Assembly: GCA_902766095.1 (NCBI GenBank)
Contig: CACXCN010000031.1
Coordinates: 1-64,000 of the forward strand
Origin: an uncultured Selenomonas sp.
Lineage (GTDB): Bacteria; Bacillota; Negativicutes; Selenomonadales; Selenomonadaceae
Direction of reading: 5' to 3'
Length of the DNA stretch: 64,000 nucleotides
Shown here: piece by piece, positions 1,594 to 26,365 of the stretch
How positions within the stretch are numbered: the first letter of the stretch is position 1
How the letters are laid out: every line of letters begins with the position of its first letter
Translations under genes and position numbers: made by a program
The notes under the pieces: model-generated
The model's database searches: none
What the model was told of the DNA's origin: nothing
Seen by the model: only the letters and a program-made list of their open reading frames with translations

Positions 1594-1626
1594 AAGTAAC
1601 TGATAATATCAGTAAACATACTCAAG

Positions 1627-1714
1627 ATTTCCCGCCGCATAGGCGGCTTAGAGAATCTTCTCAATCTCAGTCATCAGCTTCCAGTTGTTTCCCGCCGCAT
1701 AGGCGGCCTAGAAA
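1627..1714 (+). CRISPR. type I-F-like mini-CRISPR: 2 repeats, 1 spacer, no cas
   Basis: Two 28-base repeats (1627-1654 and 1687-1714) flank one 32-base spacer (1655-1686), exactly the type I-F geometry. The intact second repeat starts GTTTCCCGCCGCAT and ends GGCGGCCTAGAAA, sharing with known I-F repeats the GCCG/AGGC stem and the TAGAAA tail. The first repeat differs at three positions. The spacer, read in reverse complement, encodes WKLMTEIEK and matches the 3' end of the adjacent relaxase gene (1898-1929) at 24 of 32 bases, with CC (I-F PAM) just before that site at 1896-1897. The array would have to borrow host I-F Cas proteins. Confidence 0.85.
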
Positions 1715-1745
1715 AAAACAGACTGAGCACGGTCTGAAAATGTGC

Positions 1746-1780
1746 AAGAGCCCCAACGTCCGACAACGCTGGGGCTCTTT
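1746..1780. terminator. bidirectional intrinsic terminator
   Basis: A strong stem (AAGAGCCCCA...TGGGGCTCTT) with a short CGT/ACG extension is followed by TTTACTTT on the plus strand. It lies between the I-F array and the 3' end of the relaxase, so it could end both the array transcript and the minus-strand relaxase operon. The next 80 bases up to 1861 hold nothing else that I can see. Confidence 0.7.
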
Positions 1781-1860
1781 ACTTTGTGACTGTATGTCAC
1801 CGTACTTCTTTCGTCACGCTTATTATATCACTGATGATGTGCTCAAGCAAGAAATCAATC

Positions 1861-4860
1861 TCAGATATTGTTATACAGCCGCTTCTCTTCCTCTTCCATT
1901 TTCTCGATTTCTGTCATGAACTTCCAAGTTTTGAGTCCCATATCATCATCGATGCCGGTATTGCGCTCGACAAAGCGCGGACATACGGCATCATTATTGA
2001 GCAAAGCTTTCATAATCGCGCCCGGCTTATCTACACCGCCATTCGGCGTCCGAACGGATGGGGGAGGTCCGCCTTGATCTCTCATCGCGTCCGGATTGAT
2101 CCGATACGAGATCCGATTCTCCTTATCTTTCTGTACCTGTACCTTCAAAAGATTCATCGCCTGCTGCGCTTCAATCATCTTACCTTTGACAATCTCGGCC
2201 TTGCCAGCGACGAACTCATACTTCTTGTTCGCCTTGCTATGCTTATCCATGATGCCAAGAGCAATCGCCTGAATCTTCTCACTGGCTTCCGGTGCCGCAC
2301 ACCGCTCATCAAGCATCTTCAGCTTTCTCTCAATCGTATCACGCTGCCCCTGCAGACTGCTTAAATCGGCATCCAGCTTTTTTTTCTGCTCCGCATATTC
2401 CGGCAGCAATCCATTCTTGGCAATGTCATCCTGAAGCTTCTTCTGGTCAGATTCTATGTACTTAATCTTCTTATTGACCGCACGAAGTTCCTTTCGAGTC
2501 TCCGAATAGGCACCTTTCGTGAATCTGTCTTTTGCGATTCCCAGAGCCCGCTCGCTCGAAAATGCATATTTCTTGAGCTTCTGTGCTGCGGCAAGCAGTT
2601 TCTCATATTCCTTCTTGTAACCATAATAACGACGACGCATGATGGCATACAGTTCCCGCGTATGATATTCTTCAAGCCGGTTCTCCGACATCTCGGTATT
2701 GAACAGCGCCTGTTCCAGTGTCTTTGCCGATACCTCCAGATTCTGTTCAGCTTGCTGAAGCTTCAGCCAGTCGTGCCTGGAAGCATTCTTATTGCGGTTG
2801 ACAATAAGCTGAATCTGTTTTTTTATTTCCGAATCATTTTTCAGCCGGAATTGTATCTTGTCTACCAGCTCCTTCTGAGCTTTCTGCCGTTCATCAAGTT
2901 CTTGGTATTTATTATTCAAGGCAACCAGTAGCTCATTATAAGCCTTGATTTCTTCCTGGTCATCCGTCTCCGGCTGATGGATGCTCTGGCCGAACGTCAT
3001 CCAATGATTCAGTTCGGCCAGCGTACTCTTATATGCCTGGTACTGCTCCCGCTCGGTCGGCGTCATATATTCCAGCTCGGCCTCTTCCCAGAACTCAGCG
3101 ATAGAAATCGACAACTCTTTCAGCCGGTCGTATTCCCGAAGATTCTTCAAGAACTCCTCGCGCAGTTCTCCGATATACGAGGACGCATCCGGATTGCTCT
3201 CAACGAATTCACTCGAAGACAGAATTCGTTGAATCCGCTCCTGTAGCTGTTTCGAGTACTGGTTCTCTTGCTTTTCGGCCTTCTCCCACTCGATTTCCAT
3301 ATGAGTATAGAGCAAGTCCTGATACTGCTTCTTGAGCTGTCGGTAGTTCTTGATATTCTGCGCTTCCGGACTCTGCTCATCCAGCACTCCGTACTTGCTG
3401 ATATGCTCCTCTGGAAGCCTGTCCAGCAGGCTCGCGAGGAACGTATCGCCATTCGCTTCTGCCTCCATCTTCTGAGCTTTCAGCGATCGATGATCAATCC
3501 GCGCCTGATAGCCATATTTTTCCAGAACCGAATTCGTAATATCCTGATATGACACCCGTAATTTACTGATAAATGCAGAATCTTCAAAGCGCCGATCCAC
3601 TGGGGCGCCTTTTTTACGTCGTGCTTCCTCGCTCTGATCTTTAGCATCACTTCGCAATGATTTTTGAAAATACTTCGAGATATCCCGTTCCTTCTTCTGC
3701 TCGATATCATCGATGATGCAGGGGCTGAACATGAGATGCACATGAATATTATGCGTGCCATCAGACATCGCGCCGATCTTGTCATGTACAGCAAACGCAT
3801 AGTAATGGTTCGGCATGTTCTTTTCTATGAACTGATTGATGATTTCGAGGTTTTGCTCGAGCGTCAGCTCATTCTGCAACGCAAACTCAATTTCCTGATA
3901 TCGTCGTGCCCCTTTTGGTGAATAGCGATCGGCTGCCTTGAAGAATTTGTTGGGGGAGTCTTTTGCCCATGCTGGCAGCTTATGAGCCGTATAGACACAG
4001 CCACCTTTTTTCTGAAAAGCCTTCTCGCGATTGATGTACTCGACATGGCTCTGCGCATGAACCGCCTCGATATTCTCATTGACATTCTTCAGGATCTGCC
4101 TGGCTGTCTTTACTGCTCGTCTTCGTCTCCCCCTTGAAAAATCCCGTCGCACAGGGGGATGGGATGAGGCTCCTGGGTTGACCAGCTCGTCATCTTCATC
4201 GCGTTGCACCAGCACAGGAGATTCGCTTTGTCCATCACGAGCCAGAGTCCGTTCGGACAACTGGTGCAGGCTGGGTAGGGTTTCTGGGGTAGGAGCCTCG
4301 AGGATTGACTTGCGAGCTGAGATAATGTCGGGCTTGTCGGGCTCGAAAATGCCACCGGATGCTTTTCGGACAATCCGTCCGCCTGCGGCTTTGTATCTTC
4401 TTTTTTCATCTTCAATTTCCTCTCTTTCAGCGACCAGAGCTTTCTGAAGCTCACCATCAAAAAAAGTTATTGGCAAGTCAGCCATAGCAGCAGCCATCAC
4501 GCATTTCTGCTTGAAGCTGTCTGTTCCCTTGATAATGATGCGGTCATGCATCGATTCCTTGGCCACCATCAAAGCGATGGCCAGCGTATCCAGCGAAGGA
4601 TCGTTCTCTATTTTCAGACCGTCCTCCGTATTGATGATATTCCCGTAAGGCGACTCATAGAGCAGGGCACGCGAACCATCCAGAACATCTTTCTTCGAAA
4701 ACGACAGGATCAGGTTGTTCATCTTCGAAGCGTCCTTCTGGTCAATGTTCTTATATTGACCCTCGCGGTTGATATATTCGACATGCTGGGTCGCCCGGAC
4801 ACGTGTGCCGCTCCTGCCTGGGCGCTTATCGGTCTTGACTGTAAAATGGTATAACGCCAT
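1861..4860 (-). CDS. MobA/MobL-family relaxase, 999 residues, split catalytic domain
   Basis: Predicted to nick the element's oriT and lead the strand during mobilization. The ATG at 4860 fits GGAGGG 8 bases upstream and yields MALYHFTVK, the usual MobA/MobL opening; an in-frame TTG further up lies inside the ribosome site. The metal-binding three-histidine motif is HNIHVHLMF near residue 370. The relaxase fold appears interrupted: HVEYINRE occurs at about residues 26-33 and again at about 269-276, with a charged, Pro-rich insert of about 240 residues between, after which the usual MobA sequence (VYTAHKLPAWAKD onward) continues. The C-terminal half is a long coiled-coil-rich region. The last 15-25 residues contain WKFMTEIEKM, mirrored by the nearby I-F spacer. 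It is the last gene of the minus-strand operon. Confidence 0.88.
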   Translation of the reverse strand: MALYHFTVKTDKRPGRSGTRVRATQHVEYINREGQYKNIDQKDASKMNNLILSFSKKDVLDGSRALLYESPYGNIINTEDGLKIENDPSLDTLAIALMVAKESMHDRIIIKGTDSFKQKCVMAAAMADLPITFFDGELQKALVAEREEIEDEKRRYKAAGGRIVRKASGGIFEPDKPDIISARKSILEAPTPETLPSLHQLSERTLARDGQSESPVLVQRDEDDELVNPGASSHPPVRRDFSRGRRRRAVKTARQILKNVNENIEAVHAQSHVEYINREKAFQKKGGCVYTAHKLPAWAKDSPNKFFKAADRYSPKGARRYQEIEFALQNELTLEQNLEIINQFIEKNMPNHYYAFAVHDKIGAMSDGTHNIHVHLMFSPCIIDDIEQKKERDISKYFQKSLRSDAKDQSEEARRKKGAPVDRRFEDSAFISKLRVSYQDITNSVLEKYGYQARIDHRSLKAQKMEAEANGDTFLASLLDRLPEEHISKYGVLDEQSPEAQNIKNYRQLKKQYQDLLYTHMEIEWEKAEKQENQYSKQLQERIQRILSSSEFVESNPDASSYIGELREEFLKNLREYDRLKELSISIAEFWEEAELEYMTPTEREQYQAYKSTLAELNHWMTFGQSIHQPETDDQEEIKAYNELLVALNNKYQELDERQKAQKELVDKIQFRLKNDSEIKKQIQLIVNRNKNASRHDWLKLQQAEQNLEVSAKTLEQALFNTEMSENRLEEYHTRELYAIMRRRYYGYKKEYEKLLAAAQKLKKYAFSSERALGIAKDRFTKGAYSETRKELRAVNKKIKYIESDQKKLQDDIAKNGLLPEYAEQKKKLDADLSSLQGQRDTIERKLKMLDERCAAPEASEKIQAIALGIMDKHSKANKKYEFVAGKAEIVKGKMIEAQQAMNLLKVQVQKDKENRISYRINPDAMRDQGGPPPSVRTPNGGVDKPGAIMKALLNNDAVCPRFVERNTGIDDDMGLKTWKFMTEIEKMEEEEKRLYNNI

Positions 4861-4879
4861 AGGTGAACCCTCCAAAAAA

Positions 4880-5524: not shown

Positions 5525-7720
5525 TTAATTGCTTTGCATTTTCTGTTCCACAGCCCGCCGGATGTCGATAATGTTGTGCTTCTCGAGCTCTCCTGGCTGC
5601 TGGCACAGCTTCTGCATGACCTTGAGCGCTTCAATATAATATGGCTTCCATTCATCCCTGGCTACGTACCAGCCATAGGACCGGCCATCTTCCATGCATT
5701 CCTTGACGCCCCGCATCATCTTCCAGAACTTGTACGACGGCGACTTGAGCTTGACCATGAATCCGTTCGCGTCCTCGAACACATAGCCTTCCAGCGGCGT
5801 ATCGATGTGGCGGCAGATCTCCGTGAACTGGCTGAGCCGGTCGAGCGTGCCCTCGAGTTGCTTGCATTCCATCCCGAGCCTTCCGGCCACCGCCTTGACC
5901 TCGCTATAGGGAAGCTTCTCAGTGACAAAAGAATTCCTTATTATATCCAGCAGCACCAGATGCTCTTCATCATATGGCACGATGTGCGAATCATTGACAG
6001 GGTCGATGCACTCGCAGACGAGCGTGGCCTCATGGTCTCGGCAATAGGCAGCCATGGCTTCCGTATCCAGCCCCAGATGCCCGACCACTTTTTTCAGAAA
6101 ATCCACGTGCGGGCTGTCCGTCGAGGATTTCGAGCAATACATCAGGCCATCCGAATCCGGATCCGCTGCCAGCAGCCCGAGGAAGCCATTGTACTTCCGG
6201 AATACCGAGACAGGGAAGGCGAACCGCTTGTGGAGGTTCTGGATCTCCGTCTCCGGCAGTTCCCCGACATTGAAGAACTTGTCATAGGAGCGGCAGATGA
6301 CCCTGCCATCCTTTACGAACAGGCCGCGGGCTTTGCAGGTCAGCATGTTCCACTGACGACTCTTGAAAGCGTCCCGCGTGAAGTTATAGGAAGAAACTCC
6401 GTCAGACAGATCTTTCTTCATAATGAGCTTCGAACTGTCGAGAAGCCTGAGCCATTCCTCATCCGACTTCGGCACGAACGGGGCTGACGGCTTCTCGGGC
6501 AGCCGATAAATCCTGTTCGGGAACTCCATGACCTCGATATGGTCGTCCGGCCCGATATGCAGCACCCGGAGAGCCCCGCCAAGCTCGATGGGGGAGCAGA
6601 GATTATAGATGCGGTCATCCACCCTGGGAGCCAGCTCGTAAAGATTCCGATGCCCATGGATGAGCACATGGTCGTCCGGCGTGTTCTGCTTCCAGGCCGC
6701 ATAGACAGCATCCAGCTCCTCATACTGCCCGACACCTTTGATCATCTGACTGCTGGCCATGAAGATGCTCGGGGCAACCGGAATCCCGCCATGCGTGATG
6801 CAGTACGTCTTCGACCCGAACCTTGCATAAGCCATCTGCGAAAGCCGCGAGCAGAACCTGCGGATATCCTTCCTGCTGATATCCCGTATCTCGTTCATCG
6901 TGTGAAAGAATTCCGGAGGGAAGGGGAGCTCCCGGTTTCTGAAAACACTTACCATAGGCATGGCCGCATCCGAATACAGCCGGAGGCTTCTCTCATGATT
7001 GCCTTCCAGAAAAAGGAAATTCTTCTTGTCCAGGTTGTCAATGAAGAACTGCAGGACTTCCTTGTTCTGGATTCCGCGGTCGATGTAGTCGCCGGTAAAG
7101 ACGTAAAGCGTATGCTCATCATACGGGAACCTCGAGAAATACTCCTGCAAAGGCTCGAAGCATCCATGGATATCCCCGAACACGGCAATCCGCTCATACC
7201 GGCCATTCCAGTCGATCGCCAGCGGTGCATGAAGCATGTCCACGGCCTCTTCCGGAGCCATCACCTTGTACCGATTGGATATCTTCTGCCTCGATGCAAT
7301 GACATCACAGATATAGTAGATGCGGTCCTCCGGCACGAACTTATAGCCTTCGCGCTTCCGGTTCTGCTTCAGGATCGTCTCAATCGGCACGCCCGTGAAG
7401 TCCACAATATAGGCTCTGTAGCGGTATTTCTCGATCAATGCCCGATACTGGTTCAGCAGATCATGGCTGTAATGCGTCGCATCAACAATCGTAAACTCTC
7501 CGCGTTCCATCCGCTGCTCGAGGCATTCCCGAAGCCTCTGCCAGACCAGCCTGTCATTTCGCTGCGAAATCGACAGGCTGCCATGGATGTCAAAGACCGG
7601 CGACTGATATTCCAGCCGGATATCATCGGGAGACAGCGTATATGGCTCCAACTGATTCTTCTTTACCCAGGTAGACTTTCCAGAGCCCGGGCAGCCCCGC
7701 AATATATACAACACTCTCAT
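5525..7720 (-). CDS. three-domain RNA repair enzyme: polynucleotide kinase, phosphatase, RNA ligase
   Basis: Predicted to heal and seal broken RNA. Residues 1-170 form a P-loop kinase (RGCPGSGKST at 8-17; conserved VDATHYS) that would phosphorylate 5'-OH ends. Residues about 178-400 are a metallophosphoesterase with FGDIHGC (about 180), GDYIDRG (about 212), GNHER (about 240) and a late THGG and IHGHR, which would remove 3' or 2',3'-cyclic phosphates. Residues about 440-731 resemble a T4 Rnl1-type ligase: ARGLFV, KFFNVGE, then the nucleotidyl-lysine motif KYNG (about 507), EGYVFE and VKLKS near the end. At 731 residues it resembles the three-part design of bacterial Pnkp, but the ligase motifs look more like Rnl1. 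No Hen1 methyltransferase is adjacent. The ATG overlaps the HNH gene stop (ATGA), so the two are translationally coupled. Confidence 0.85.
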   Translation of the reverse strand: MRVLYILRGCPGSGKSTWVKKNQLEPYTLSPDDIRLEYQSPVFDIHGSLSISQRNDRLVWQRLRECLEQRMERGEFTIVDATHYSHDLLNQYRALIEKYRYRAYIVDFTGVPIETILKQNRKREGYKFVPEDRIYYICDVIASRQKISNRYKVMAPEEAVDMLHAPLAIDWNGRYERIAVFGDIHGCFEPLQEYFSRFPYDEHTLYVFTGDYIDRGIQNKEVLQFFIDNLDKKNFLFLEGNHERSLRLYSDAAMPMVSVFRNRELPFPPEFFHTMNEIRDISRKDIRRFCSRLSQMAYARFGSKTYCITHGGIPVAPSIFMASSQMIKGVGQYEELDAVYAAWKQNTPDDHVLIHGHRNLYELAPRVDDRIYNLCSPIELGGALRVLHIGPDDHIEVMEFPNRIYRLPEKPSAPFVPKSDEEWLRLLDSSKLIMKKDLSDGVSSYNFTRDAFKSRQWNMLTCKARGLFVKDGRVICRSYDKFFNVGELPETEIQNLHKRFAFPVSVFRKYNGFLGLLAADPDSDGLMYCSKSSTDSPHVDFLKKVVGHLGLDTEAMAAYCRDHEATLVCECIDPVNDSHIVPYDEEHLVLLDIIRNSFVTEKLPYSEVKAVAGRLGMECKQLEGTLDRLSQFTEICRHIDTPLEGYVFEDANGFMVKLKSPSYKFWKMMRGVKECMEDGRSYGWYVARDEWKPYYIEALKVMQKLCQQPGELEKHNIIDIRRAVEQKMQSN

Positions 7721-8283
7721 AGAATCTCATCCTTCAAATTTCGTGTCCCTAAATTCCCCAGAATATCTGTCAGCTGCCGCTGGAACATCCGGCATTCCCT
7801 GAGTATCATCAATGTGAAGTAGAGCGTGTACTCATCATCTGCCAGATAGCAGTAGGCCGTCTTCAAACTGCTCAAAGCCAGATACATCCGGTTGGCCTCG
7901 GCTTTCAGTTCCATGAGCTCCTTCTGCCTGTCCAGTATCGGCAGATCTGTCAGGAACGGTTTGTGTGAGCTGTTAAGTTCAGATTCGATTCGCTCTATTC
8001 CCTCGAGCCTTTCTTTATTCTTCTTGAAGCCATCAAAATAGAAATCATGGCCCAGCTTCTTTCGGAATTCTTCCAGAGTCAGAGACGACTTCTGCGTATT
8101 GCATTCATAGCAAGACAGCGCCAGATTGGAAAAATCCGATGTCCCACCGACGCTTCTTGGGATGATATGGTCGATGGTACAGTCGAACGTTCCCAAAAAC
8201 AAAGGCTTCCCGCAGTAAGCACAATGCCCGCCAAATTTCTGATAGACCTTCTGCTTTTTCGATTTCGTTATCATTATACCCAC
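7717..8283 (-). CDS. HNH endonuclease
   Basis: A zinc-bound HNH nuclease: CAYCGKP (first Cys pair), DHIIPRSVGGTSDFSNL (catalytic His region) and CYECNTQK (second Cys pair) all lie in the first 75 residues. The remaining 110 residues are helical and match nothing I recognise, perhaps a target-binding part. Start is uncertain: GTG at 8283 or ATG at 8274, the latter with GTGGG just upstream. The stop overlaps the RNA repair gene start, suggesting a functional pair. Whether it cuts DNA or RNA cannot be told from the sequence. Confidence 0.82.
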   Translation of the reverse strand: MGIMITKSKKQKVYQKFGGHCAYCGKPLFLGTFDCTIDHIIPRSVGGTSDFSNLALSCYECNTQKSSLTLEEFRKKLGHDFYFDGFKKNKERLEGIERIESELNSSHKPFLTDLPILDRQKELMELKAEANRMYLALSSLKTAYCYLADDEYTLYFTLMILRECRMFQRQLTDILGNLGTRNLKDEIL

Positions 8284-16594: not shown

Positions 16595-16670
16595 GGTTCC
16601 TTGGTCAAATCGGTTAAGATATCACCCTTTCACGGTGATGATGCGGGTTCGAATCCCGCAGGAATCTCCA
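16595..16670 (+). tRNA. tRNA-Glu (anticodon UUC)
   Basis: A 76-base tRNA with encoded CCA. The acceptor stem GGTTCCT pairs with AGGAATC (one G-T), the anticodon stem-loop is CACCCTTTCACGGTG with anticodon TTC, and the T-arm is GCGGGTTCGAATCCCGC. The first T-arm and anticodon pairs are intact, so it should be functional. It lies alone, with its own promoter and terminator, inside the mobile region. Confidence 0.93.
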
Positions 16671-16821: not shown

Positions 16822-19101
16822 ATGCGCCTATTTATTGCAGAAAAGCCGTCACTCGGACGGGCGATTGCAGACAACCTGGGAAAGGGAAGCAAGAAGGATG
16901 GATACATCTCCCTCAACGACGGGAAAGACATCGTAACCTGGTGCTTCGGCCATATCCTCGAGCAATACAACCCAGACGAGTACGATGAAAAGTACAAGCA
17001 CTGGACCATTGAGGACCTGCCCATCCTCCCGAGTGTATGGAAGCTCAAGATCAAGAAGGATGCAGCCAAGCAGTTCAAGGTTATCAAAGAACTCGTCAAG
17101 CAGGCAGATTATGTCGTCAACGCAGGCGACCCGGACCGTGAAGGCCAGCTGCTCGTCGATGAAGTCCTCGAGTACATCGGCAACAAGAAGCCGACGAAAC
17201 GCATCCTGCTGAACGCGCTGGACAGCAAGAGTGTTCAGACAGCCCTGCAGGACCTGCGCGACAACAAAGACTTCGCAAGCTTCCGGGACAGTGCCAGAGC
17301 CCGCAGCCAGGCCGACTGGCTCGTAGGTATGAACCTCACCCGCGCCTACACCATAAAGAGCAGGCAGGCTGGCTATGAAGGAGTTGTCCATGTTGGACGA
17401 GTCCAGACCCCGACGCTCGCCCTCGTCGTCCGTCGGGAAGATGAAATTCAGCACTTCCAGCCGACCACGCACTACGTCTGCCAGGTGAACTGGAAGCATG
17501 AGAATGGAGACATCCCGACCACCCTCAAGTATAAGCCGGATATGGAAGGCCTCGATTCCGAAGGCAGACTCACATCGAAAAGTGTAGCCGAAGGCCTGCT
17601 CTCCAAGGTCGAAGCGATTGCCAGCCATGGCGACGGCGCCACAATCACCAAAGTCGAGCGCAAGCAGAAGCAGGAAGGCCAGCGCCTGCCGTACTCCCTG
17701 TCATCGCTGCAGGTCGAGGCTGGACGCAAGTACGGATACTCCCCGCAGCAGGTCCTGGACACCATGCAGGGCCTCTACGAGAAGAAGCTGACGACCTATC
17801 CGCGGTCGGACTGCGAATACCTGCCGACCAACCAGCTTGGTGATGCCAAGGCTATCATATCCAACCTGAGCGCCATCCAGGACCTCGCCGTATATTGCGA
17901 TAAAGCGGATACATCCATTCGCTCCCGCTGCTGGAACGACAGCAAGATCAGCGCTCATCATGCCATCATCCCGACCGTCGTCAAGGCACCGGACTCGCTG
18001 ACCGAAATCGAGCAGCGCATGTATACCATGGTGGCCAAGGCCTATCTGGCACAGTTCTATCCAATCCATACCTATATGGCCACGAAGATCACCATCGAGT
18101 GCGCTGAGGAAACATTCATCGCCAACGGGAAGCAGATCCTTACGAACGGCTGGAAAGAGCTCTATGCCAAGGACGCCAAAGAGAAGGACGAGGAAGAGGC
18201 CGATACGCCATCCCTGCCGGAAGTCGAAGAAGGGGACAGCGCAGCCTATGGCAGCGGCAAGATACAGGAAAAGATCACCAAGCCACCGAAACGCTTCACC
18301 GAAGCCACCCTGCTCCAGGCTATGAAAGAAATCTACAAGTACGTCAAGGATAAAGAGCTGGCCAAGGGACTCAAGGAATGCAAGGGCATCGGCACCGAGG
18401 CCACCCGGGCCGGAATTATCGAGACACTGAAAAAGGCTGACTTCTTCACGGTAGAAAAGAAAAAAATCGTGCCGACCGACAAAGGCCGCATGGCGATCAG
18501 CGTCCTGCCAGATGCCATCACCTATCCGGACACCACGGCGAAATGGGAGGCCGAGCTTGACCAGATTGTAGATAAGAAGATCAGTCTGGACGACTTCCTG
18601 AAGCACCAGACCCAGATTCTCAACGACCTGCTCAAAGAAGCCAAGGAAGCCAGCATCGCGGCCAACAAGGACGCTGTACTGTGCCCGAACTGCGGCAAGC
18701 CGATGCGCCGCCGCAAGGGCAAGACCGGATTCTTCTGGGGCTGCAGCGGCTATCCGAAATGCAAGACCACCTTCCCTGACAAGAAAGGCAAGCCGGACAT
18801 GGAAGCCAAGAAATCCAAATCGACCGGCAAGACGGCCAAGTGCCCGGTCTGTGGCAAGAAGCTCCGTCAGATCAAAGGCAAGTTCGGCATCTTCTGGGGC
18901 TGCGAAGACCGCGACTGCGGTGCCACCTTCCCTGACCACGACAACAAGCCTGTCATCGTCAAGTGCCCGAGCTGCGGCAAGGGATATCTCAAGCGCAGCG
19001 AATCGAAGAAGCATCCCGGCAAATTCTACTGGTGGTGCTCGGAGCGCTGCGGTGCTCCTTCCGTCTGGGATAAAGACGGTCTGCCGGATTTGAAGAAATA
19101 A
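16822..19101 (+). CDS. topB: DNA topoisomerase III (type IA)
   Basis: Relaxes and decatenates DNA by cutting one strand; plasmid and ICE copies often assist transfer or replication. The TOPRIM domain is at the N-terminus (LFIAEKPSLGRAIADNL; AGDPDREGQL near residue 103). The catalytic tyrosine lies in TTYPRSDCEYLP near residue 326. From about residue 620 three zinc ribbons follow: CPNCGKPM, CPVCGKKL and CPSCGKGY, each with the FFWGC or FYWWC closing motif. 759 residues, intact, GGAGG before the ATG. Confidence 0.95.
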   Translation: MRLFIAEKPSLGRAIADNLGKGSKKDGYISLNDGKDIVTWCFGHILEQYNPDEYDEKYKHWTIEDLPILPSVWKLKIKKDAAKQFKVIKELVKQADYVVNAGDPDREGQLLVDEVLEYIGNKKPTKRILLNALDSKSVQTALQDLRDNKDFASFRDSARARSQADWLVGMNLTRAYTIKSRQAGYEGVVHVGRVQTPTLALVVRREDEIQHFQPTTHYVCQVNWKHENGDIPTTLKYKPDMEGLDSEGRLTSKSVAEGLLSKVEAIASHGDGATITKVERKQKQEGQRLPYSLSSLQVEAGRKYGYSPQQVLDTMQGLYEKKLTTYPRSDCEYLPTNQLGDAKAIISNLSAIQDLAVYCDKADTSIRSRCWNDSKISAHHAIIPTVVKAPDSLTEIEQRMYTMVAKAYLAQFYPIHTYMATKITIECAEETFIANGKQILTNGWKELYAKDAKEKDEEEADTPSLPEVEEGDSAAYGSGKIQEKITKPPKRFTEATLLQAMKEIYKYVKDKELAKGLKECKGIGTEATRAGIIETLKKADFFTVEKKKIVPTDKGRMAISVLPDAITYPDTTAKWEAELDQIVDKKISLDDFLKHQTQILNDLLKEAKEASIAANKDAVLCPNCGKPMRRRKGKTGFFWGCSGYPKCKTTFPDKKGKPDMEAKKSKSTGKTAKCPVCGKKLRQIKGKFGIFWGCEDRDCGATFPDHDNKPVIVKCPSCGKGYLKRSESKKHPGKFYWWCSERCGAPSVWDKDGLPDLKK

Positions 19102-23882: not shown

Positions 23883-24296
23883 ATGAACAACGTACAGCTT
23901 GTAGGCAGACTTGCGAGAGACCCAGAGATAAGAGACCTCAGCAACGGCAATTCGGTTCTCAACTTCACCCTCGCGGTCAACCAGCGCAAGACCAAAAGCA
24001 ACCCGAACCCGCAGGCCGACTTCATCTCCTGCGTTGCATGGAACGGAGTGGCCCGCATCATATCGAAGTACTGCAAGAAGGGAAACCGAATCGGCGTCAT
24101 CGGCCGCGTCCATTCGTATACCTATGACGGCAGCGACGGCAAGAAGCGCCGTATCGTGCAGATCATCGTCCGCGAGGTCGAATTCCTCGACTCTCCGCAT
24201 AAGGGTGAGCAGGCCCACGCCACAGAGCATGACGAGAACATATCTGCCGCTGACGAGCAGACGACGCTTGACCAGATAAATGAGGTTCCATTCTGA
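23883..24296 (+). CDS. ssb: single-stranded DNA-binding protein
   Basis: An OB-fold SSB of 137 residues: MNNVQLVGRLARDPEIR at the start, then FISCVAWNGVARI and IGVIGRVHSYTY. The acidic tail ends EVPF instead of the usual DDIPF, still able in principle to dock partner proteins. Element SSBs protect the transferred strand. It is the last recognisable gene of the element. Confidence 0.93.
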   Translation: MNNVQLVGRLARDPEIRDLSNGNSVLNFTLAVNQRKTKSNPNPQADFISCVAWNGVARIISKYCKKGNRIGVIGRVHSYTYDGSDGKKRRIVQIIVREVEFLDSPHKGEQAHATEHDENISAADEQTTLDQINEVPF

Positions 24297-24835: not shown

Positions 24836-26365
24836 ATGGCAACTGTTCAGGAAAAAATCGAACTCATGAACGAGAAGAAAGAGCATATCCGCCAGGGCGG
24901 TGGACAGGCTCGCATCGACAAGCAGCATGCCAAAGGCAAGCTGACCGCGCGTGAGCGCCTCAACCTGCTCTTTGATGAGGGCAGTTTCGTCGAGCTGGAT
25001 ATGTTCATGAAACATCGTTGCACGAACTTCGGCATGGAAAAGAAAGAGATGCCGGCGGATGGTATCGTGACGGGCTATGGCACAGTCAACGGCCGCCTCG
25101 TCTATGCCTATTCGCAGGACTTCACCGTTTCCGGTGGTGCTCTGGGCGAGAAACATGCTCACAAGATCTGGAAGGTCCAGGATCTGGCCATGAAGATGGG
25201 CGCTCCCTGCATCGGCATGAACGATTCGGGCGGTGCGCGTATCCAGGAGGCCGTTGATGCGCTCTCCGGCTTTGCGGGCATCTTCTTCCGCAATACGGCT
25301 GCTTCGGGTGTCATCCCGCAGATATCGGTCATCATGGGACCGTGCGCCGGCGGCGCTGTCTACAGCCCGGCCATCACGGACTTCATATTCATGGTCAAGA
25401 ATACGAGCCAGATGTTCATCACGGGTCCGAAAGTTATCGAGACCGTCACGGGCGAGCAGGTCACAGCTGAGGCTCTCGGTGGTGCAGTAACGCATAACCA
25501 GAAATCCGGCGTGGCTCATTTCGCTTGCGAGAACGATGAGGACTGTATCGCGAAGATTCGCGCGCTGCTGGACTATCTGCCGAGCAACAACATGGAGGAT
25601 GCTCCGAGCGTCGAGCCGACGGATGATCCGAACCGTCAGGACGAGAGCCTCAACAGCATCATCCCGGACAACCCGAATATGCCTTACGATATGAAGGCAG
25701 TCATCGCCTCGGTCGTTGATGCCGGCTCGTTCTTCGAGGTTCAGGAGATGTTCGCTGAGAATGCCATCATCGGCTTTGCCCGCGTCGATGGCCGTTCCGT
25801 CGGTGTCGTAGCCAACCAGCCGGCTTTCATGGGCGGCTGCCTCGATGTCGATGCTTCGGATAAGATCGCTCGCTTCGTACGTTTCTGCGATGCATTCAAC
25901 ATTCCTCTGCTGACGTTTGTCGATGTGCCGGGCTTCCTGCCGGGCGTCGATCAGGAGCATAACGGCATCATCCGTCATGGCGCCAAGATGCTCTATGCCT
26001 ACAGCGAGGCTACGGTGCCTAAGGTCACGGTCATCACGCGTAAGGCTTACGGCGGTTCTTACATCGCTATGTGCTGCCGCGAGCTCGGTGCTGATCAGGT
26101 CATGGCTTGGCCGACGGCTGAGATAGCTGTCATGGGCCCGGATGGTGCAGCCAATATCATATTCCGCAAGGATCCGGATAAGGAAGCCAAGAAAGAGGAA
26201 TATAAGGCTGAGTTCGCTACCCCGTACATCGCCGCAGAGCGTGGCTATGTCGACATGGTCATCGAGCCGAAAGAGACGCGTCCGTATGTCGTTACGGCAT
26301 TCAACGCTCTCGCCAGCAAGCGCGAAGTAGGTCCGGCCAAGAAACATGGTAATATTCCACTGTAA
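24836..26365 (+). CDS. mmdA: methylmalonyl-CoA decarboxylase alpha subunit (carboxyltransferase)
   Basis: Transfers the carboxyl group of (S)-methylmalonyl-CoA to the biotin carrier, a step of succinate-to-propionate fermentation coupled to sodium export in Veillonella relatives. Two crotonase-like carboxyltransferase halves are evident, with MNDSGGARIQEAVDALSGF and GPCAGGAVYSPA in the first and FVDVPGFLPG and KAYGGSYIAM in the second. 509 residues, normal for MmdA. AGGAGG is 8 bases before ATG. Propionyl-CoA carboxylase beta subunits are close homologs; the following small subunit and biotin carrier support Mmd. Confidence 0.9.
   Translation: MATVQEKIELMNEKKEHIRQGGGQARIDKQHAKGKLTARERLNLLFDEGSFVELDMFMKHRCTNFGMEKKEMPADGIVTGYGTVNGRLVYAYSQDFTVSGGALGEKHAHKIWKVQDLAMKMGAPCIGMNDSGGARIQEAVDALSGFAGIFFRNTAASGVIPQISVIMGPCAGGAVYSPAITDFIFMVKNTSQMFITGPKVIETVTGEQVTAEALGGAVTHNQKSGVAHFACENDEDCIAKIRALLDYLPSNNMEDAPSVEPTDDPNRQDESLNSIIPDNPNMPYDMKAVIASVVDAGSFFEVQEMFAENAIIGFARVDGRSVGVVANQPAFMGGCLDVDASDKIARFVRFCDAFNIPLLTFVDVPGFLPGVDQEHNGIIRHGAKMLYAYSEATVPKVTVITRKAYGGSYIAMCCRELGADQVMAWPTAEIAVMGPDGAANIIFRKDPDKEAKKEEYKAEFATPYIAAERGYVDMVIEPKETRPYVVTAFNALASKREVGPAKKHGNIPL

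Follow-up and report, generated by a model that had tools for sequence, protein, structure and literature searches.

A leaderless, single-spacer type I-F mini-array adjoins the relaxase gene that its spacer resembles on a putative integrated mobilizable element of Selenomonas

We describe a type I-F CRISPR mini-array that lies immediately beside the MobA/MobL relaxase gene of what appears to be an integrated mobilizable element, in a window (the whole 64-kb stretch of DNA analysed) from a contig of a 2.34-Mb Selenomonas genome that is 99.8% complete. The array has a single spacer, which, judged from its codons and the protein motif they specify, comes from the coding sequence for the conserved C-terminal motif of a relaxase close to, but distinct from, the resident one. 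The reading that we favor, with a probability of about 0.6, is that this leaderless one-spacer array excludes sister elements by means of borrowed Cas proteins, and its role would thus be competition between elements.

A type I-F repeat/spacer/repeat unit

Window positions 1627 to 1714 hold a type I-F repeat/spacer/repeat unit by repeat and spacer length: both repeats are 28 nt, both Cas6f stems (a 5-bp hairpin) are intact, and the spacer is 32 nt. The features of this region are as follows.

1594-1626, plus strand: the 33 bp upstream of repeat 1, with the palindrome CTGATAATATCAG, lacking a native I-F leader; a promoter here is only putative
1627-1654, plus strand: I-F repeat 1 (ATTTCCCGCCGCATAGGCGGCTTAGAGA), which provides the 5′ handle CTTAGAGA and has the same core as cas-linked arrays
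1655-1686, plus strand: 32-nt spacer ATCTTCTCAATCTCAGTCATCAGCTTCCAGTT, whose reverse complement codes for NWKLMTEIEK(I/M)
1687-1714, plus strand: I-F repeat 2 (GTTTCCCGCCGCATAGGCGGCCTAGAAA), which matches Rfam CRISPR-DR4 at 35.3 bits and whose Cas6f-type stem is intact on folding
1719-1736, minus strand: terminator-like hairpin and T-run, which closes the relaxase transcript just ahead of the array
1746-1779, no strand assigned: GC-rich hairpin between array and relaxase, a possible terminator of the array transcript

The type I-F assignment rests on the Rfam CRISPR-DR4 match, in which repeat 2 exceeds the gathering score, and on the repeats of cas-linked arrays in the same bacterial family. 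The repeat core GCCGCATAGGCGGCTTAGAAA recurs within that family, where genomes with cas genes have it in long I-F arrays, and the long arrays of its Cas7f/Csy3 genomes use the repeat GTnnnCCGCCGCATAGGCGGCTTAGAAA and close variants of it. The handle in the family consensus is CTTAGAAA, from which each of the two repeats differs by one base. A sequence-only reading of this DNA had proposed a 28/32/28 I-F-like mini-array at this place, 147 bases from the relaxase stop, and both statements hold, with 147 bp separating the end of the array from the stop codon.

The native I-F leader of the family, typically AAAATTnGGGTAAAAT about 60 bp ahead of the first repeat, is absent upstream of the array, so that acquisition of further spacers is improbable. 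No sigma-70-like promoter was recognised upstream of the array. Beyond the 33 bp upstream lies a very strong hairpin of 17-20 bp without a T-run (1550-1593); the 87-nt stretch containing it has a fold z-score of about -10, and it is possibly a processing, replication or transfer site.

Farther out, positions 1309-1523 carry a second, degenerate set of three to four repeat copies (TAGCATCTCGCACGTGTGCGGGAAATGAAAA and variants) spaced 65-68 apart, with a 5-bp stem and a variable loop; these are CRISPR-like, yet match no I-F repeat. We considered them as another mini-array and set this aside, the intervals having no convincing match in the loci compared. The only other exact copy of this motif in 380 Negativicutes genomes is at about 1499-1590 of locus L090 (G175:C131), where two copies are flanked by a tyrosine-recombinase-like ORF and a TnpC-like ORF, surroundings that may be of Tn554 type.

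An orphan array in a family with patchy type I-F Cas

The array is an orphan and not part of a complete I-F CRISPR-Cas locus, the carrier genome having no match to Cas7f or Cas1 in a protein-family search for these two proteins; to act, it would therefore need a different host, or a cell that I-F Cas also enters. Cas7f/Csy3 is present in 25 of 189 genomes of the family, and the repeat core is found in their cas-linked arrays, so that the association of this repeat with I-F Cas in hosts, which the sequence-only reading had left to be checked, is indeed seen. We reason that an element that switches hosts would meet this patchily distributed system often enough for the array to matter.

These observations also bear on whether the array is a relic, acquired (perhaps through recombination) from an I-F array of a host and carried now as inactive cargo whose spacer still records a relaxase. 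The lack of Cas7f and Cas1 in the carrier, the missing leader and unrecognised promoter, and the one-base handle changes in both repeats are what a relic might display. However, the Cas6f stems, the 28-nt repeats and the 32-nt spacer length are all intact, the array sits between terminator-like hairpins and beside the gene it mirrors, and mobile elements change hosts in a family where 25 of 189 genomes have I-F Cas; we thus regard a relic as unlikely, albeit an explanation to be taken seriously.

The carrier element and its relaxase

The array and the gene it resembles lie near the left edge of the contig, in a region with the following additional features.

1861-4875, minus strand: MobA/MobL relaxase of 1004 aa, with the C-terminal motif TWKFMTEIEKMEEEE, identified by Pfam PF03389 and PF18821 and by family C-termini
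1896-1897, plus strand: CC, the I-F PAM dinucleotide, 5′ of the self site
1898-1929, plus strand: self site, matching the spacer at 24 of 32 bases, within the relaxase gene at the codons of the conserved C-terminal motif
16822-19101, plus strand: topoisomerase III of the element (Pfam)
23883-24296, plus strand: single-strand binding protein (SSB), near the right end of the element

The presence of a relaxase together with a chromosomal right flank suggests that the carrier is a mobilizable element in integrated form. From about 24.8 kb onward the genes are of chromosomal type, a chromosomal-type carboxylase ORF starting at 24836. The left end lies beyond the contig, and no integrase was seen on the element. 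Its set of relaxase, topoisomerase III and SSB also occurs together on plasmid NZ_CP017043.1, which encodes one of the two nearest relaxases (the other is in genome G028), each about 45-46% identical to the resident protein; the annotated nearest relatives of the relaxase sit on Selenomonas plasmids. Other genes within the element include one for an RNA-repair-like protein of 731 aa with kinase, phosphatase and RNA ligase domains (5525-8283), which adjoins an HNH endonuclease gene, and a tRNA-Glu gene (16595-16670) just ahead of topoisomerase III.

MobA/MobL relaxases share a motif of approximately [N/D/T]-W-x-L-M-S-E-x-[E/D]-K-D-E in their last 20 or so residues, its W-x-L-M-S-E-x-x-K-D-E portion lying about 10-20 residues from the end, in proteins of about 1000 aa that are otherwise diverged (for example, at loci L031-L054 and L089). 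The motif is possibly a secretion or partner-binding signal.

The spacer derives from a relaxase gene

The self site is the best match to the spacer in the 64 kb on both strands, followed by a runner-up with 21 of 32 bases. The sequence-only reading had drawn attention to this 24-of-32 match and its 5′-CC, and to the peptide NWKLMTEIEK encoded by the reverse complement of the spacer against TWKFMTEIEK in the relaxase, and comparison across the window and with the resident peptide gives the same result. The mismatches fall at spacer positions 3, 9, 12, 15, 21, 23, 30 and 31. Four of them are synonymous third-base changes, as that reading had counted, but each of the two substituted codons contributes one more, so that its tally falls short of the six of eight that lie at codon position 3 (hypergeometric p = 0.005); this bias indicates that both sequences diverged under coding selection, each specifying the motif.

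On a C-terminal motif profile derived from 18 other relaxases, the spacer peptide scores 21.1 bits and the resident peptide 15.8 bits, the spacer peptide thus being nearer the family consensus than the resident one. The maximum is 5.1 bits among 661 other I-F spacers, and 11.1 bits among 117,000 10-mers from the rest of the window. On these sequence comparisons, the resemblance between spacer and relaxase is homology and not chance.

The spacer begins with AT and the PAM is CC, and the coding strand reads AT-GG; a source with an intact PAM would have coded for K-M-[E/D/G/A/V], and the resident relaxase has K-M-E. Among ten relaxase sites compared, only the resident one has the CC; elsewhere the dinucleotide is CA, CG or CT, mostly on account of a K-D or K-A at that place. 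With CC and the K-M codon confined, in this comparison, to the resident, the source was probably a sister of the resident relaxase, or possibly its ancestor. Together with the motif profile and the codon-position bias, this strongly supports the proposal, already made by the sequence-only reading, of a related relaxase gene as the origin of the spacer.

If the source was the element's own ancestral relaxase, the resident gene would have changed after spacer acquisition, evading self-targeting, while the spacer stayed frozen. The K-M codon and CC common to resident and spacer, and absent from the other relaxases compared, are compatible with such an origin, and synonymous escape on the gene side would likewise yield a bias toward codon position 3. 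Differences at 8 of 32 positions, including two amino-acid replacements, exceed what escape needs, however, and the spacer peptide is the closer of the two to the family consensus, although an ancestor would look so too. An ancestral self spacer therefore seems doubtful to us.

The resident site is predicted to escape interference

The I-F Cascade seed comprises positions 1-5, 7 and 8, and mismatches are tolerated at each sixth position as well as toward the end distal to the PAM (PMC7305327). By these published rules, the self-site mismatches at positions 12, 30 and 31 would be tolerated, and those at 3, 9, 15, 21 and 23 poorly tolerated, position 3 being in the seed. With five of the eight mismatches poorly tolerated, the seed mismatch among them, self-interference against the resident site is thus unlikely, and the suggestion that codon drift, including seed position 3, spares the carrier gains support from this comparison.

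The same mismatches weigh against the idea that the guide, pairing imperfectly with its own relaxase gene, acts as a repressor that does not cleave, in the way that CreA/CreR-type RNAs act on promoters. The best match in the window is indeed the element's own gene, with a CC and adjoining the array, but the site has a seed mismatch at position 3 and four more poorly tolerated mismatches (PMC7305327), lies far from the promoter, in the 3′-terminal part of a gene of 3 kb, and is in a host where the Cascade subunit Cas7f was not found. We accordingly rejected a Cas-regulating or CreA-like regulatory crRNA, which would have a seed match near a promoter, and consider self-regulation in general improbable.

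As a control, we compared 664 distinct family I-F spacers with about 200 kb of sequence comprising the element, 29 relaxase loci and a Selenomonas plasmid stretch. Five pairs reached 24 of 32 bases, from which we estimate roughly a 1-in-400 expectation for such a match by one spacer in 64 kb, before the CC, the gene and the frame are counted. Chance resemblance of an unrelated spacer can be dismissed, for although five control pairs match as well, none of the five has a CC, no other I-F spacer approaches it on the motif profile (5.1 bits at most among 661, compared with 21.1), and the codon-position bias has p = 0.005. We found no credible reciprocal targeting of the element by the 664 spacers.

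The donor and related arrays

The sequence-only reading had looked to a perfect protospacer with 5′-CC inside a MobA/MobL gene; none was found in plasmids or phages (by blastn with the spacer), in viral and GTDB contigs (searched with a degenerate codon pattern of the motif), or in 380 genomes of the class, where a search allowing up to three mismatches returned the array itself as the sole match. A close relative of the relaxase was likewise not confirmed in GTDB contigs. The missing donor is weak evidence, since even the nearest relaxases fall below half identity and this branch is poorly sampled. Within the sequence examined, none of 30 other relaxase loci has a similar array, and the one described here is unique among them.

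Comparison with known mini-arrays

The array has the properties of mini-arrays of mobile genetic elements, with one spacer and no cas genes on a mobile element (such arrays having one or two), a spacer from the homologous gene of a related element, as judged by homology in the C-terminal motif, and an altered orthologous site in the carrier, whose eight mismatches, five of them poorly tolerated, predict escape. In the Sulfolobales viruses SPV1 and SPV2, mini-array spacers target close relatives near the array, and the virus's own copy is changed (Medvedeva et al. 2019, PMC6858448). The Selenomonas array shares with them the few spacers, the lack of cas genes, the choice of an orthologous region of a relative, the nearness of target to array and the changed own copy. 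Unlike those arrays, which have leaders, belong to archaeal viruses and have identified cross-targeting partners, it is leaderless, of type I-F and carried by a mobilizable bacterial element, with its donor not found.

The same pattern, leaderless, is described for phage mini-arrays (Faure et al. 2019, as presented in PMC6858448 and PMC11656645). In so far as those accounts describe them, the phage and prophage arrays resemble ours in being leaderless, with host-type repeats, and in targeting array-adjacent genes in relatives and not in the carrier; they differ in carrier, ours being a probable integrated mobilizable element, and in target, which here is a relaxase instead of a virus gene. Orphan arrays and CRISPR systems aimed at other elements are also known from plasmids, ICEs and IMEs, and are considered capable of working with host Cas in trans (PMC9071438, PMC9841420). 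Ours is similar in its conjugative or mobilizable type of carrier and its apparent aim at other elements, and unlike them in having a single spacer, placed right next to the orthologous gene, whose self copy has diverged. What is new here is the mobilizable element as carrier and the relaxase as target, the mini-array pattern itself being known from viruses.

RNA anti-CRISPRs (Racr) are solitary repeat units that mimic repeats (PMC10651486), and the array resembles them as a small RNA unit based on repeats and carried by a mobile element. We rejected a Racr function, for the array has a pair of repeats and, between them, a genuine 32-nt spacer that derives from coding sequence and bears homology.

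Two other loci with I-F repeats came to our attention. A solitary I-F-like repeat at about 1494-1521 of locus L064 (G040:C41), in a genome without Cas7f and just upstream of an IS200-like transposase ORF, is a candidate RNA anti-CRISPR-like unit or relic. A viral contig (L094, IMGVR_UViG_2840797934_000004) has an I-F array of three to four repeats with the same core at 3880-4080; this contig is phage-like, with tail genes and transposases, and we set it aside as having no bearing on the present case.

A model for exclusion of sister elements

In the favored reading of exclusion through borrowed Cas, Cas6f in a host with I-F Cas would cut the array transcript, Cascade would then load the guide, and Cas2/3 would destroy incoming or co-resident sister elements whose relaxase gene still matches beside a CC. 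The carrier's own site would be spared through its five poorly tolerated mismatches, including seed position 3, and in the present Cas-less host the array would be silent cargo. Weighing against this reading are the failure to find a perfect protospacer, the lack of Cas7f and Cas1 in the carrier genome, the unrecognised promoter, the absence of such arrays from the 30 other relaxase loci and the one-base handle changes.

A more speculative extension, which we hold to be unlikely but worth stating, is that the array and the adjoining diverged relaxase form a linked cassette of guide and resistant allele, directed at the conserved C-terminal motif of a relaxase family, that spreads in the manner of a toxin paired with an immunity gene, such that a sister element recombining in the array would also gain the immune relaxase end. 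If true, this would explain why array and target lie so close together in virus mini-arrays, a closeness that Medvedeva et al. called unexplained (PMC6858448).

Mini-arrays that lack cas genes and lie next to a diverged copy of their own target were known from viruses; the array extends this pattern to a probable mobilizable bacterial element and to its key transfer gene. As another, unrelated case of the same geometry, it makes the linkage of a guide to a resistant allele an idea open to testing. An active array would amount to element-versus-element exclusion acting on relaxase genes and dependent on the Cas system of the recipient.
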